Shown here one piece after another: positions 2,136 to 15,503 of a DNA stretch of 64,000 nucleotides. Source of the DNA: Flavobacteriaceae bacterium (GTDB taxonomy: Bacteria > Bacteroidota > Bacteroidia > Flavobacteriales > Flavobacteriaceae); contig CANBWX010000004.1 of the NCBI GenBank assembly GCA_947373225.1, positions 1 to 64,000 of the forward strand, written 5' to 3'. How positions within the stretch are numbered: position 1 is the first letter of the stretch; every line of letters begins with the position of its first letter. The notes below the pieces were generated by a model that was not told the DNA's origin, ran no database searches, and saw nothing but the letters and a program-made list of their open reading frames with translations. A program made the position numbers and the translations under genes.

Positions 2136-2163
2136 GATACGATAGTGTTTCTTTTATATTTGC

Positions 2164-2261
2164 GTGAGGGATAGTAGTGGAAATCCTTTTATGCAGCTTA
2201 GCGGAATAAAAGATTGCAACGAATAGCCCGACCCGAAGTTTTTACGGAGGGCCACGCCCAA
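2164..2261 (-). repeat. dispersed hairpin element, copy A
   Basis: minus strand: ...CGGGCTATTCGTTGCAATC-[TTTTAT..ATAAAA]-GGATTTCCACTACTATCCC...; shared with copies B and C. Confidence 0.7.
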
Positions 2262-2332: not shown

Positions 2333-3649
2333 TTAATATCTGTAATATTCTGGTTTAAATGGTCCTTCAACGGGAACACCAATATAATCCGCTTGGTCAA
2401 CACGAAGAGTTTCTAATTCAACTCCTAGTTTAGCTAAGTGCAACATAGCCACTTTTTCATCTAAATGTTTAGGTAACATGTACACGTCATTGTTGTATGC
2501 CGCGCTGTTTTTCCATAATTCGATTTGAGCTAAAGTTTGGTTGGTGAATGAGTTACTCATTACGAAACTTGGGTGACCTGTAGCACAACCCAGGTTTACC
2601 AAACGACCTTCGGCAAGGATAAGAATATCTTTTCCAGCGATAGTATATTTGTCTACTTGTGGTTTGATTTCGATTTTTGATGCACCGTGGTTTTTGTTCA
2701 ACCAAGCCATGTCAATTTCGTTATCAAAATGCCCGATGTTACAAACGATAGTTTTGTCTTTCATTTGTTCGAAATGAGAACCTAAAACAATGTCTTTATT
2801 TCCAGTAGTTGTAATGATAATATCGGCAGTTGTAATAACAGTGTCTAATTTTTTAACTTCAAAACCGTCCATTGCAGCTTGCAAAGCACAAATTGGGTCA
2901 ATTTCAGTAACTGTTACGATAGAACCAGCACCTCTAAAAGAAGCAGCAGTTCCTTTTCCAACATCACCGTAACCACAAACGATTACTCTTTTTCCAGCCA
3001 ACATAATATCGGTAGCACGACGAACAGCATCTACAGCCGATTCTTTACAACCGTATTTGTTGTCAAATTTCGATTTAGTAACCGAGTCATTTACGTTGAT
3101 AGCAGGCATTGGTAACGTCCCCGCTTTTACTCTTTCGTAAAGTCTATGAACACCAGTTGTAGTTTCTTCGCTCAATCCTTTGATTCCAGCAACTAATTCT
3201 GGAAAACGGTCAATAACCATATTCGTCAAATCGCCACCGTCATCAAGAATCATATTCAATGGTTTTCTGTCTTCGCCAAAGAACAAAGTTTGCTCGATAC
3301 ACCAGTCAAAATCAGGTTCATTTAAACCTTTCCAAGCATAAACCTGAATTCCAGCAGCAGCAATCGCAGCAGCAGCTTGATCTTGAGTAGAGAAAATATT
3401 ACAAGAACTCCAAGTAACTTCTGCGCCAAGAGCAATTAAAGTTTCAATCAAAACCGCAGTTTGTATTGTCATGTGTAAACATCCAGCAATACGAGCACCA
3501 GCAAGAGGTTGTTCGTTTTTGTATTCCGCACGAAGCGCCATTAAACCTGGCATTTCGGCTTCAGCCAATTCAATTTCTTTTCTTCCCCAAGCCGCTAGAG
3601 AAATGTCTTTTACTTTGAAAGCCACATAAGGCATAGTCGTTGTACTCAT
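2333..3649 (-). CDS. ahcY: adenosylhomocysteinase
   Basis: full-length; [35 protein letters not shown]-terminal PDHYRY-like KPEYYRY. Confidence 0.97.
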
Positions 3650-3777: not shown

Positions 3778-3801
3778 GTCACCCTGAGTAAAATCGAAGG
3801 G
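3778..3801 (+). repeat. short dispersed repeat of the GTCAYCCTGAG...TCGAAGG type
   Basis: gtcaccctgagtaaaatcgaaggg, abutting element copy B. Confidence 0.45.
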
Positions 3802-3802
3802 A

Positions 3803-3874
3803 GGAGCTAATCCCGCTATCCGTTATAATCTCCCGAAGAAAAATCGGGAGGATTTCCACTACTATCGGGGCTAA
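3803..3874 (+). repeat. dispersed hairpin element, copy B
   Basis: ggagctaatcccgctatccgttataatc-[tcccga agaaaaa tcggga]-ggatttccactactatcggggctaa. Confidence 0.7.
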
Positions 3875-3932
3875 AAATCAGTAGTAATTAGGAACCTCAT
3901 AATTCATAATTTATAATTCATAATTAATTTAA

Positions 3933-4568
3933 ATGCCATTATTCAAAACCATAAACTTCAATCCTTCAACACAAATCCTTGTTTGGAAAATAACCGAATC
4001 CTACGAGGAGTTATTTCACGATGTACAACTGAGCGAGAAAAGTCTGCAGCGATTACACGGTATGAAATCCGAATTGCATCAACGTGGTTTTCTCAGCGTT
4101 CGAAAATTATTACAAGAAGCCGGATACAATGATTTCGATTTGTATTATGATGAATCAGGAAAACCGTATCTTCAAAACGGGAAATTCATTTCCATCTCGC
4201 ATTCCTTTCGCTTTTCAACGATAATAATCAGCGATCAAAAAGCAGGAATAGACATCGAAATGCAAAGAGAAAAAATCCTGAAAATCGCCGATAAATTTGT
4301 AAACAACAAAGAATTACAACGATTACAAAGTTTTGACAATCAAGATTACATAAAAAAACTAACAACGAAATGGGGCGCGAAAGAAGCCGTTTTTAAAATC
4401 CGAAACGAAAAAGGAATCAGTTTCAAACATCATATTCAGGTGAGTCCATTTGAAATTGTAGACAAAAAAACAACCGCAATTCTAGAAATCGAAAACACAA
4501 AACAACAATTTTCCATCTATTTCGAGGAAGTTGAAGATTTTATTTTGGTCTATACTTTCGAAAATTAA
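3933..4568 (+). CDS. 4'-phosphopantetheinyl transferase superfamily protein
   Basis: GIDIEMQRE..., KLTTKWGAKEAVFKI (W-x-x-KEA-x-x-K motif). Confidence 0.85.
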   Translation: MPLFKTINFNPSTQILVWKITESYEELFHDVQLSEKSLQRLHGMKSELHQRGFLSVRKLLQEAGYNDFDLYYDESGKPYLQNGKFISISHSFRFSTIIISDQKAGIDIEMQREKILKIADKFVNNKELQRLQSFDNQDYIKKLTTKWGAKEAVFKIRNEKGISFKHHIQVSPFEIVDKKTTAILEIENTKQQFSIYFEEVEDFILVYTFEN

Positions 4569-8526: not shown

Positions 8527-8627
8527 TCCCGTCTCAAAGGGGTGCTCTAAATAACGAGCTGAGATTATACCCAACGAACCTGAACAGGTAATGCTGTTAA
8601 GGGAAATAGATTCGAAGATGATGTGCA
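8527..8627 (+). ncRNA. TPP (thi-box) riboswitch
   Basis: aaaGGGGTGCtc...GAGCTGAGAttataCCCaacGAACCTGAacaGGtTAATGCtgttaaGGGAA matches the THI-box core. Confidence 0.95.
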
Positions 8628-8708: not shown

Positions 8709-10859
8709 ATGAACACTATTTTTAAGTCAAAGGGCCAAGAGCCAAGAGCTAATAGCCAAAACTGTTTTATTAGAGTATTTTTCATACTTTTTACTTTTCA
8801 CTTTTCACTTTTCACTTTTTCACAAGTCAAAGACACAACCAAAGTTAATCAACTCGATGAAGTATTGGTTTCGGCGGTTCGTGTAACTTCAAAAACGCCA
8901 GTTAGTTTCAGCAATTTGGACAAAAAGGAAATCAAGTTCCGAAATTTAGGTCAAGACATTCCTATTTTGATGAATTATTTACCATCTGTTGTTACCACTT
9001 CCGACGCTGGAAATGGAGTAGGTTACACAGGAATTCGCGTTCGCGGAAGCGATGGTACTCGTGTGAATGTTACCATAAACGGGATTCCATATAACGATTC
9101 GGAAAGTAGCGGAAGCTATTTTGTAGATATGCCTGATTTTGCTTCTTCGGTGGAGAGTTTGCAGTTGCAGCGCGGTGTGGGAACTTCTACAAATGGAGCG
9201 GGTGCTTTTGGCGCAAGCCTAAATATGCTTACCGACAGTTATTCTAAAGTGAGCAATGGCGAAATTTCGAATTCTTTCGGAAGCTTTAATACTCAAAAAC
9301 ATACTGTAAAATTCAGTACTGGTTTAATGAATGACCATTTTGAAATTGCAGGTCGTTTATCGTCCATAAAATCGGATGGATATGTTGATCGTGGTGCTTC
9401 GGATATGAAATCTTATTTCCTGCAAGGAACTTATGTGGGTAAAACTACGTTGATTAAAGCTTTGACTTTTGGCGGAAAAGAGAAAACCTATCAATCTTGG
9501 TATGGTGTCGACGCTGAAACATTGGCAACCGACAGAACATTTAATTTTGCAGGAATGTATACCGATTTAAATGGAAATACGCAGTTTTACAAGAATGAAA
9601 CCGATAACTATCAGCAGGATAATTACCAGTTGCATTGGAATGAAAAAGTATCAAGTAAATGGAACACTAATTTGGCTTTTCATTACACAAAAGGAAAAGG
9701 GTATTATGAAGAATACTTGAACAATCAGGCTTTTGCAGATTATGGTTTGCTGCCGGTTGCTGGGCAAACTACCACCGATTTGATTCGTCAAAAATGGTTA
9801 GATAATAATTTCTACGGTACTACATTTTCGGCAAATTATAAAGATGAAAAACTAGATTTTATTTTTGGTGGAGGATATAATAAATATGAAGGTGGTCATT
9901 TTGGTCAGGTAATTTGGGCGCGTTTTGCCTCTCAAAGTGAATTGGGAGATAAATATTATGATAATTCGGCAACCAAAAACGACGGAAATGTTTTTGCTAA
10001 AGCCAATTACCAAATCAGTTCAAAAATTAGTTTGTTTGGGGATTTACAACTTCGAAATGTGATTTATAAAATCAACAGTCCAGAAACAGGTATCGTCAAT
10101 GCAAATTTTAATTTTTTCAATCCAAAAGCGGGTTTAAACTATACAATTAGTGAAAAGAACGTATTGTATTTTTCGTATGCAAGAGCCAATCGGGAACCGA
10201 ATAGAACGGATTATGAAGGCGGAAATGCAAAACCAGAAAAACTGAATGATTTTGAATTAGGTTGGAGATATGCTGGCGAAAAAGTAAAATTCAATTCGAA
10301 TATTTATTATATGGCTTACAAAGACCAACTGATTTTGACTGGAAATTTAGACAATGTAGGAAATCCAATCCGTTCTAATAGTGATAAAAGTTACCGTTTA
10401 GGTATAGAAGTTGATGCTACAATTGCATTATCTGAAAAGCTATTTATTAGACCAAATTTTACTTTGAGTAGTAATAAAAATACGGATTTGGCTGTAGCCG
10501 GACAGAAATACGGAACGACAACTATTGCTTATTCGCCATCGATTATTGCGGGAAATATTTTGGTTTACAAACCAATCGAAAGCTTGCAAATTTCATTATT
10601 GCAGAAATTTGTTGGCGAACAATATATGAATAACATCGAATTACCGGCCGCAAAACTAGCTGACTATTTTGTAAACGATTTCAATATTGCTTATGAAATT
10701 AAACCAAAATCAGTGTTTAAATCAATTGTTATTACAGGGTTAGTCAACAATTTTTTAGATAAAAAATATATCTCAAATGGTTATATGTATGATGTTAGTC
10801 CTTACTATTATCCGCAAGCAGGAATCAATTTTTTGGCGGGATTAACCTTAAAATTTTAG
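8709..10859 (+). CDS. TonB-dependent receptor, probably thiamine or precursor uptake (from riboswitch)
   Basis: plug domain (LDEVLVSAVRVTSKTPVSFSNLDKKEI, GIRVRGSDGTRVNVTINGIP) and C-terminal barrel ending LTLKF*. Confidence 0.93.
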   Translation: MNTIFKSKGQEPRANSQNCFIRVFFILFTFHFSLFTFSQVKDTTKVNQLDEVLVSAVRVTSKTPVSFSNLDKKEIKFRNLGQDIPILMNYLPSVVTTSDAGNGVGYTGIRVRGSDGTRVNVTINGIPYNDSESSGSYFVDMPDFASSVESLQLQRGVGTSTNGAGAFGASLNMLTDSYSKVSNGEISNSFGSFNTQKHTVKFSTGLMNDHFEIAGRLSSIKSDGYVDRGASDMKSYFLQGTYVGKTTLIKALTFGGKEKTYQSWYGVDAETLATDRTFNFAGMYTDLNGNTQFYKNETDNYQQDNYQLHWNEKVSSKWNTNLAFHYTKGKGYYEEYLNNQAFADYGLLPVAGQTTTDLIRQKWLDNNFYGTTFSANYKDEKLDFIFGGGYNKYEGGHFGQVIWARFASQSELGDKYYDNSATKNDGNVFAKANYQISSKISLFGDLQLRNVIYKINSPETGIVNANFNFFNPKAGLNYTISEKNVLYFSYARANREPNRTDYEGGNAKPEKLNDFELGWRYAGEKVKFNSNIYYMAYKDQLILTGNLDNVGNPIRSNSDKSYRLGIEVDATIALSEKLFIRPNFTLSSNKNTDLAVAGQKYGTTTIAYSPSIIAGNILVYKPIESLQISLLQKFVGEQYMNNIELPAAKLADYFVNDFNIAYEIKPKSVFKSIVITGLVNNFLDKKYISNGYMYDVSPYYYPQAGINFLAGLTLKF
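8733..8823. repeat. two heptanucleotide-period repeats inside the receptor N-terminal coding region
   Basis: (CCAAGAG)x2 region 8733-8758; (CTTTTCA)x3 at 8794-8814 with degenerate flanks. Confidence 0.85.
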
Positions 10860-12465: not shown

Positions 12466-13617
12466 ATGAAAAAGACGATCTTAGTTTTTACTTTCCTTTT
12501 CTCCATTTTAGATTTTGGTCAAACGAATGTTGGTTATGGTTTAATCGACAAAAAAATTGATGAAATTCCAATTAATTCAACTACTTCTACGGATGAAATT
12601 GCACGTTATATAAATGCTAATTTCAGAACAGAAAACGATAAAATTCGCGCTGTTTTTTATTGGACAGCATCGAATATTAGTTATGATGTTCAGAATATGT
12701 ATGCTATTAATTTTAATGAAACATCCGAAAAAAAAATCAAAAAATCACTTGAAACCAGAAAAGGAGTTTGCATTAATTATGCCGAAATATTTAATGAAAT
12801 CTCAAATAAGGTTGGTGTAAAATCAGTTGTTATTGAAGGTTATACAAAACAAAATGGGAGCGTGGCTAATATGGCTCACGCATGGTGTGCTGCTAAAATT
12901 GAAAATAAGTGGTATATATTTGATCCAACTTGGGGTTCGGGAGGTTTGTACAATGGGAAATTTCTCAAGAAAATCAATAATTATTATTTTAAAGCAGAAC
13001 CTAGCAAAATAATTGCTTCTCACATTCCGTTCGATTTTTTATGGCAATTTCTATATTACCCAATTACGAACCAAGAATTTTATGACGGAAAAATTCAAGT
13101 AAATAAATTAAAAAAGTATTTTGATTTTGAAAGTGAAATAGGAAAATTTAATACATTATCCGAAATAGATAAATTAACAGGAGAAGCTGAACGAATTGAG
13201 AAAAATGGAGTGAAAAATGCTATGGTATTTGATAGGCTTTCCAATAAAAAAAGTCAAATTGAAAACTATAAAATTAATCAAGTTATAAGTTTGTATAACG
13301 AAGGAATAAGTGAATTGAATGAGTTTATAAATTTTAGAAATAAACAATTCAAACCAAATGTTTCTGACGATGAGCTGACAAGAATGATAATGAGCCCAAA
13401 GACCAAATTACTTAAAAGTCAAGAATTGTTAAACAAATTAGAATCAGTAGATAAAAGTAATTTGTCTAATAAAAATTCTATTGAAAAAGGGCTTTTAGGA
13501 ACAATTCAACAAACGGAAGAGCAGGAAATATTTGTAATGAAATATTTAAGCAAGTCAAAAATGATTCGTAAAACAATGTTTACCAAAGTTTCTTGGTTTG
13601 GAATTCCACTAAACTAA
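12466..13617 (+). CDS. transglutaminase-like domain protein, secreted
   Basis: RKGVCINYAEIF..., MAHAWCAAKIENKWYIFDPTWGSGG (Cys/His/Asp). Confidence 0.85.
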   Translation: MKKTILVFTFLFSILDFGQTNVGYGLIDKKIDEIPINSTTSTDEIARYINANFRTENDKIRAVFYWTASNISYDVQNMYAINFNETSEKKIKKSLETRKGVCINYAEIFNEISNKVGVKSVVIEGYTKQNGSVANMAHAWCAAKIENKWYIFDPTWGSGGLYNGKFLKKINNYYFKAEPSKIIASHIPFDFLWQFLYYPITNQEFYDGKIQVNKLKKYFDFESEIGKFNTLSEIDKLTGEAERIEKNGVKNAMVFDRLSNKKSQIENYKINQVISLYNEGISELNEFINFRNKQFKPNVSDDELTRMIMSPKTKLLKSQELLNKLESVDKSNLSNKNSIEKGLLGTIQQTEEQEIFVMKYLSKSKMIRKTMFTKVSWFGIPLN

Positions 13618-14763
13618 ATTACTTTTCTTAAAACTAACCTGCATCGTTGTTCCTTTTCCAATTTCTGAAAGTAGCACTTTTATAGTGCCTTTATGGTATT
13701 CTTCTACAATTCTTTTTGTAAGAGAAAGTCCTAAACCCCAACCACGTTTTTTAGTTGTAAATCCAGGTTCAAACACATTTTTAAATTGTTTTTTTGGAAT
13801 TCCATTTCCGGTATCAGTCACTTTTATTTTTATATTTTCACCATCTTCTTCAATAGTAACGTCCAGTTTTCCTCTGCCTTTCATCGCGTCAATTGCATTT
13901 TTTACTAAGTTTTCAATTGTCCAAGCGTGCAAAGTAGGATTTATTGAAACCATGATTGATTTTTTGGGTGCTTTAAAAGAAAACTCCACTTGTTTAGAAA
14001 ATCGTGATTGTAAATAATCATACGACTGAAGTGTTTCTTCGACAATATCTCTACTTTCTAATTTTGGTTCGGAGCCTATTTTCGAAAATCGATCTGTTAT
14101 GGTTTGCAAGCGTTCAATATCTCTTTCTATTTCTAAAGTGATGGTTTCATCAACATTTTCTGCTTTCAAAAGTTCTATCCAGCCTATTAATGACGAAAGT
14201 GGAGTTCCTATTTGGTGTGCCGTTTCCTTCGCCATTCCTGCCCAAAGTTTGTTTTGAGTCGCCATTTTGGTACTTCTGTAAAAATTATAGACCAGTCCCG
14301 CAAACAGCACAATAATAAGCAATAAAGCAATGGGATAATACTTGAGTTTATTCAATAGAGCAGAGTTGCCGTAATACAATTTCTGAAATTTACCTGGTGC
14401 ATATTCTATTATTATGGGCTCGTTTTGGTCTTTAAGACTTGATAGAAAGGCCAAAGCTCTTTGCTTGTCCTTGACGATTTCCTCGTCAATATTCACCGTA
14501 TTTATTATAGTGTCATTCTCGGCAAGCATCAATGGAATCGAAGTGTTATTGCTAAAAATTTGTAGAGGAAGTTCTAAATCAGTCGTTTCCCCAGCGTTTT
14601 TGAGTGTTTTTTGTGCATTAGCCCAAAGGTTCATTTTCAAGCGTTCTTCGTTTTTGAAAATTTGAAAAAATGTATAAGTGTTCCAAAGAATTAATGAAAT
14701 AATTAAAAAGGAAACTGAAATAATAATCCAACGACTTGTATTTCTATTTTTGGAAAAATTCAT
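13609..14763 (-). CDS. sensor histidine kinase (orphan)
   Basis: H-box AKETAHQIGTPLSSL; N-box ENLVKNAIDAMKG; DTGNGIP; GLGLSLTKRIVE. Confidence 0.93.
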   Translation of the reverse strand: MNFSKNRNTSRWIIISVSFLIISLILWNTYTFFQIFKNEERLKMNLWANAQKTLKNAGETTDLELPLQIFSNNTSIPLMLAENDTIINTVNIDEEIVKDKQRALAFLSSLKDQNEPIIIEYAPGKFQKLYYGNSALLNKLKYYPIALLLIIVLFAGLVYNFYRSTKMATQNKLWAGMAKETAHQIGTPLSSLIGWIELLKAENVDETITLEIERDIERLQTITDRFSKIGSEPKLESRDIVEETLQSYDYLQSRFSKQVEFSFKAPKKSIMVSINPTLHAWTIENLVKNAIDAMKGRGKLDVTIEEDGENIKIKVTDTGNGIPKKQFKNVFEPGFTTKKRGWGLGLSLTKRIVEEYHKGTIKVLLSEIGKGTTMQVSFKKSNLV

Positions 14764-14820: not shown

Positions 14821-14907
14821 GGAGCTTTTTCCTGCTGTACGCTGTATCCACATCATTGCTCGTGCCTCGCAATGACGTGGGATGCCGCTTCCATCAGGGC
14901 TAGGGCA
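14821..14907 (+). repeat. dispersed hairpin element, copy C, with nested GTCATTGCGAGG-type repeat as insert
   Basis: ggagctttttcctgctgtacgctgtatc-[cacatcattgc tcgtgcctc gcaatgacgtg]-ggatgccgcttccatcagggctagggca. Confidence 0.7.
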
Positions 14908-15125: not shown

Positions 15126-15503
15126 ATGGAAGTTACAGGAAAAATCAAAATGATTGATCAAACCAAAGAGGTTGGATCTGCAGGTTTCAAAAAAAGAGAC
15201 GTAGTTGTTACAACTGACGAGCAATATCCACAAAGTATTTTGGTGCAATTTGTTCAAGACAAATGTGACTTGTTGAATAATTTCCAAGTAGGAGAAGCTG
15301 TAAAAATCGACATTAATTTAAGAGGAAGAGAATGGATTAATCCACAAGGAGAAACCGTTTATTTCAATACAATTCAGGGATGGAGAATCGCAAAAGCACA
15401 AGCTGAAGCTCCTTCAAGTCAAGCGCCACCAATGCCGGCTGCAGCTGCTTTTCCACCAGCAACAAGCTTAAACGAAGATGAGCCAGATGATTTACCTTTC
15501 TAA
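15126..15503 (+). CDS. DUF3127 family protein
   Basis: MEVTGKIKMIDQTKEVGSAGFKKRDVVVTTDEQYPQ...; C-terminal acidic DEPDDLPF. Confidence 0.88.
   Translation: MEVTGKIKMIDQTKEVGSAGFKKRDVVVTTDEQYPQSILVQFVQDKCDLLNNFQVGEAVKIDINLRGREWINPQGETVYFNTIQGWRIAKAQAEAPSSQAPPMPAAAAFPPATSLNEDEPDDLPF

Follow-up and report, generated by a model that had tools for sequence, protein, structure and literature searches.

Flavo-1 hairpins of a Flavobacteriaceae genome and its relatives are inherited in place, swap their tips and include a three-way-junction class

Three short hairpins, whose stems differ by paired base changes and whose tips vary, lie in a 64,000-nucleotide stretch of a Flavobacteriaceae genome (hereafter the window, in contig 4 of a 3.01-Mb draft assembly). 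What kind of element are they, and in what form do they fold? An earlier note on this DNA had presented them as a three-copy family (A, B and C) with one layout. A cmscan search with all Rfam models bears out both the places and the common layout: all three hairpins are Flavo-1 (RF01705), above the gathering cut-off of 42 bits, at 2154-2237 (+) for copy A (58.8 bits), 3805-3876 (-) for copy B (71.9 bits) and 14824-14905 (-) for copy C (58.6 bits; 78.9 bits with the R1 model). The family is much larger than three, with 53 copies above the cut-off in the window's own genome, and the note had used the strand opposite to the one that folds, which is plus for A and minus for B and C. Its mention of similar sequences in other Flavobacterium genomes was sound: these are Rfam Flavo-1, a family already catalogued. 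By ahcY the closest named relatives of the genome are Flavobacterium, with a 98% identical protein in Flavobacterium sp. AED. Flavo-1 copies are mainly intergenic, imperfect palindromes in high copy number, and one flank, GGATTTCCACTACTATC, is exact at copies A and B, against a chance expectation of 0.14 matches. Elsewhere in the window, a TPP-riboswitch-like match at 8528-8621 (+), upstream of an ORF at 8709, scored 44.2 bits, below its cut-off of 54.3; it is probably a real THI element.

Flavo-1 was listed in 2010 by Weinberg et al. as a likely RNA of the Bacteroidetes that is not cis-regulatory (PMC2864571), and Rfam classes it as 'Gene; sRNA'. The family is thus known, with no function assigned; new here are inheritance in place, the swapping of tips between copies and a three-armed class. 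The class II junction, tip exchange and site conservation described below are absent from the Rfam match and from the cited Flavo-1 literature, and literature searches on Flavo-1 RNA and on Flavobacterium with RAYT found nothing.

The case for folding is carried by covariation and not by stability, the folding energies of single copies being unremarkable (z of -0.36 for A and -0.33 for B). The compensatory pairs first named in the window are correct (CCCG/CGGG in B, CCTG/CAGG in C, GGG/CCC in A, and AC/GT versus GC/GC), and the genome-wide covariation on which the earlier note had staked its reading is strong. When 31 own-genome copies were aligned to the Rfam-type structure, 94.2% of cells were paired, 19 of 22 pairs showed changes on both sides, and the covariation score was 0.613, as against 0.200 for shuffled alignments and at most 0.183 for slid partners. 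The core contains two internal loops, GNA opposite GNA, and a bulged C, and direct reading of the alignment places several unpaired purines of the GNA loops among its least variable positions. Remnants of coding sequence are ruled out by the intergenic position of the copies and the covariation of their pairs.

In each copy, one strand is selected for its ability to fold as a long hairpin. Among the ungapped outer pairs of 99 distinct apical stems, the strand matched by Rfam carries 29 G.T and 4 A.C mismatches, or 26 versus 4 when counted by element (p = 1e-5), a count that a G.U-favouring detection model might bias slightly, with scores lying far above threshold; the core leans the same way, though less strongly (15 to 11). 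Strand-symmetric mutation would produce the two mismatches equally, so selection for folding acts on the Rfam strand only, as the proposal of selection on a folded single strand had implied. DNA hairpins also tolerate wobble pairs, and the preference therefore fits RNA and single-stranded DNA alike.

Copy A belongs to a second class of Flavo-1, a three-way junction with covariation of its own. It shares the core layout of the other two, as first described, but differs in kind: an outer helix and a side arm extend it to 2160-2261 (+), where the R2 model scores 102 bits and the minimum-energy RNA fold is a three-way junction. Its outer helix P1 pairs GCGTGA (2162-2167) with CCACGC (2252-2257) and encloses the core hairpin P2 (GGGAT..AGCCCGA, variable apex, 2168-2231, 52.3 bits with the R1 model) and the side arm P3 (CCC-variable loop-GGG, 2232-2251), which is conserved in class II copies. 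The layout recurs as a GCGTGA/TCACGC outer helix with a CCC..GGG arm, GCGTGA lying 5' of the core, TCACGCCCAA lying 3' and the arm between them. Pairing holds in 96.3% of class II cells, where slid partners reach no more than 47%, and covariation is seen in the outer helix (CG/UA; GC/UA/AU; and GC/AU at a neighbouring pair); the three conserved pairs of the side arm are invariant, so that covariation cannot bear on them. About 8-9 own-genome copies are of this class, and the outer helix and side arm matched no other Rfam family, only Flavo-1 being above threshold there. Class II copies taken alone lie antisense to genes in 22 cases and sense in 7, counts that include orthologous copies and are hence non-independent. 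A third core type, GGAGCTC..AGCGGGA, with the upper helix replaced on both sides, was seen in three class II copies (L285, L305, L307), and others have a long, terminator-like side arm with A and T tracts (L376:6571-6688, L354:7186-7302, L103:9925-10043).

Flavo-1 copies are inherited in place and in orientation across species and do not hop freely. Copy B, a class I element like copy C, lies in the gap between ahcY (2333-3649, -) and a divergent sfp-like gene (3933-4568, +), and copy A lies downstream of ahcY and antisense to it. Copy C likewise separates two divergent genes, at 13609-14763 (-) and 15126-15503 (+). We sought the ahcY region in 300 genomes of the genus and compared the 30 closest loci. 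The great majority have a Flavo-1 copy upstream of the gene, invariably on the strand of ahcY and mostly at a distance of about 125 or 147 bases from its start, so that copy B has kept its position and strand in most related species; the copy A element is present downstream in about 10 of the 30, always antisense. Outside the genus, Algibacter luteus has an antisense class II copy about 100 bases downstream of ahcY, and four Chryseobacterium loci have Flavo-1 at one common place after the gene. Across three species pairs, shared sites were in the same rather than the inverted orientation in ratios of 31:2, 21:0 and 20:2 (72:4 in total), and for about 30 of some 55 own-genome copies, one flank or both are shared with a copy in the genome G215. 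No clean empty site or target-site duplication was obtained, the ahcY-sfp gaps that lack Flavo-1 being simply shorter. A separate short repeat, GTCACCCTGAGTAAAATCGAAGGG, abuts the 3' end of copy B at 3778-3801 (+) and was found at a copy-B-type junction only in L179, L180 and L182.

Apical tips turn over far more quickly than cores, and they swap between copies independently of them. Tips at orthologous sites are 0.47 identical, as against 0.38 at non-orthologous sites, and exceed 0.8 in only 6 of 27 cases, while the cores are kept; these comparisons were made between orthologues of some 75-90% identity, a distance over which drift is already extensive. Some tips do drift by paired changes, as from CACGC/GCGTG to CGTGC/GCACG between ahcY sites. 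Exchange is clearest in G215, where eight copies, with cores of both types and including a class II copy, have a near-identical 52-nt tip (0.95 identical). The cores of these eight resemble one another no more than chance would give, being 0.63 identical compared with 0.58 (sd 0.03) for type-matched random copies (p 0.08), and at two of the eight sites the orthologues in the window's own genome bear other tips. The 36-nt palindrome at the centre of this tip, sought in 400 whole genomes independently of Flavo-1, gave 52 copies in 20 genomes; all 42 that were checked (20 loci, 16 further ones and six others of G215) lie inside a Flavo-1 tip, on different cores, and three single half-sites lie outside Flavo-1 (L438-L440). 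The earlier suggestion of a platform with exchangeable tips thus holds, in that the same tips recur on unrelated cores. The tip of copy B (TCCCGATTTTTCTTCGGGA, 3831-3849, -) recurs on another own-genome copy (L052), and that of copy C (CACGTCATTGCGAGGCACGAGCAATGATGTG, 14849-14879, -) resembles a CGTC-tagged REP. Two further tips (L331, L337) are the REP-type palindrome that adjoins a Y1 gene on contig 19, and REP-type palindromes of both this and copy C's CGTC type occur outside Flavo-1 too.

Other sequence modules were observed in or beside the element. A hairpin (ACTTCACT...GAGTTCAGTGAACTTCGTTT) lies inside some copies at GATT^GNA, splitting the core, in either the 3' arm (L336, L338, L180, L184, L244) or the 5' arm (L317, L326, L335, L250, L312). 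At the 3' end of class I copies, another short repeat, CACGAGCGAAGCGAACTGGCGAAGCA, separates GGA from AATAGCTCC (L038, L060, L334, L303), and this places AATAGCTCCT within the element. Chryseobacterium class I copies and some class II copies share an alternative conserved apex, CCCACAGC..GCGAGGA (L138, L142, L143, L145, L174, L272, L350, L354), perhaps an older, protein-binding tip; a kink-turn was considered for it by eye and rejected, since the GA order is wrong for one.

Is the folded strand an RNA? That each Flavo-1 copy is the gene of a small RNA, or a site in transcripts where a protein binds the RNA, with the tip a neutral spacer in which pairing is all that counts and which changes by compensatory drift, is a reading that we regard as rather doubtful. 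The strand-specific G.U preference, the conserved unpaired purines, the covarying three-way junction, the conserved place and orientation and the Rfam class are all consistent with it, as are the tips that drift by paired changes, but drift cannot explain how eight unrelated cores came to bear one 52-nt tip. Gene context also argues against it. The 149 copies placed in three genomes, with genes called by simple ORF finding, are sense to the neighbouring gene in 36 cases, antisense in 57, divergent in 37 and convergent in 19, near the background of intergenic gaps, so that about 63% cannot be read on the folding strand by transcription of neighbouring genes. With no consistent orientation to the adjacent gene, a cis-regulatory element is rejected, as is the mRNA 3'-end element that the note had listed as a candidate. 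An own promoter was likewise discarded, the TAnnTTTG motif showing no excess upstream of copies in the three genomes; copy A is directly preceded by TTTG-N18-TATATTTG. Transcriptome data from F. psychrophilum offered no clue either: Flavo-1 matches there are sense or antisense to transcripts indifferently, with many outside transcripts (PMC9723704). The random spread over chromosome and gene contexts would suit a double-stranded-DNA or chromosome-organising site (for a nucleoid protein, gyrase or a KOPS-like system) that is paired through cruciform extrusion only. We consider this very improbable, because the wobble asymmetry between strands is unexpected for a strand-symmetric site and because replichore polarity was absent from two complete genomes (36+/28- and 30+/24-, the origin being placed roughly from 20 GC-skew samples per genome), which also disposes of a polar chromosome motif.

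A third possibility, that Flavo-1 is an ordinary REP/REPIN population moved now or recently by a RAYT transposase, would account for short intergenic hairpins at tens per genome, and a Bacteroidetes-specific Y1 subclass with atypical structures has been described (PMC6006769). As to the GTAG/GGAG guide tetranucleotide that REP hairpins have at their foot, the ends of class I elements carry an AGGAGC-like sequence on the opposite strand, a few bases away from the stem, and class II has no AGGAGC. We nevertheless judge a RAYT-moved population improbable, since the positions are conserved between species and copy number is not tied to the presence of Y1 (RAYT) genes: genomes without a Y1_Tnp match hold 83, 79 and 61 copies, and three genomes with one hold none. 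Four genomes (G018, G020, G024 and G033) gave no Flavo-1 hit. The four Y1 genes of the window's own genome, all more than 2.5 kb from any Flavo-1, adjoin other palindromes, as do the three of G215. A RAYT as simple mover is thereby rejected, and a simple MITE with its own transposase is not supported; of the REP/MITE-like origin offered earlier, the REP-like part is nearest in mechanism, whereas the expected linkage to a transposase failed. The own-genome Y1 palindromes are all distinct (AATCCCGCTGGGATT, CCCACGGTTTCAACCGTGGG, GATAGCGCAGAATTGCATTCTGTGCCC and ACCTGACAGGTTTTAAAAACCTGTCAGGT; L065:2310-2440, L066:5150-5400, L067:4480-5230 and L068:5020-5680), and those of G215 differ again (L399-L401).

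The explanation that we prefer, with a probability of about 0.45, is that Flavo-1 is a long-domesticated, REP-like platform of single-stranded DNA that receives REP-type hairpins at its tip. On this view the folded strand would be single-stranded DNA, in the manner of REP/IS200-type systems, and would be recognised in its folded form by a protein reading the core. REP/REPIN-like palindromes would land in the apical loop or replace it, either because this position is targeted or because it is the only harmless one, and a Y1 transposase gene adjoining Flavo-1 is an unlikely source of the exchange enzyme. The copies themselves may be an old domesticated population kept in place for a putative host role. 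More tentatively, the platform may be genus-wide, with a dedicated tip exchange in which modules are confined to tips and spread between both classes while the platforms stay unmoved. Against the single-stranded-DNA platform stand the G.U preference, which fits DNA and RNA equally, and the lack of any transposase or recombinase linked to Flavo-1; long-lasting conservation of position exceeds the needs of a purely selfish element and also counts against it.

Rfam has listed Flavo-1 since 2010 as an RNA with no assigned function, and our results supply concrete, testable grounds for doubting that it is an ordinary one, adding a three-way-junction class and a process of tip exchange restricted to one element. 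If they are confirmed, covariation in dispersed bacterial hairpins would not by itself prove RNA function, and genomes would offer for study a modular exchange of hairpins of a new kind.

Among known systems, the Flavo-1 of RF01705 (PMC2864571) has the same core hairpin and flanks as the window copies. The Rfam model describes one short form, without the class II three-way junction. Integron attC sites are strand-specific folded hairpins in which some unpaired bases are conserved and the terminal structure varies. Flavo-1 has these features in common with them, a likeness only; unlike at attC, no arrays or integron context were seen at Flavo-1, and attC boxes were not recognised by eye. REP/REPIN elements with RAYT are likewise high-copy intergenic imperfect palindromes, but Flavo-1 does not lie next to a RAYT, its number is independent of Y1 genes, and it has a long imperfect core with G-N-A loops and conserved positions. 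Insertions of REP dimers into other palindromes are on record for a few species, and CGTC repeats without a transposase are reported too (PMC3733652); the former give the tip observation a precedent in kind. The tip of copy C begins with CGTCATTGCGAGG (14865-14877, -) and is likewise of the CGTC type; unlike in those CGTC/GTAG-tagged palindromes, the palindrome that plays host here is a covarying, genus-wide Flavo-1 core that bears many kinds of tip.
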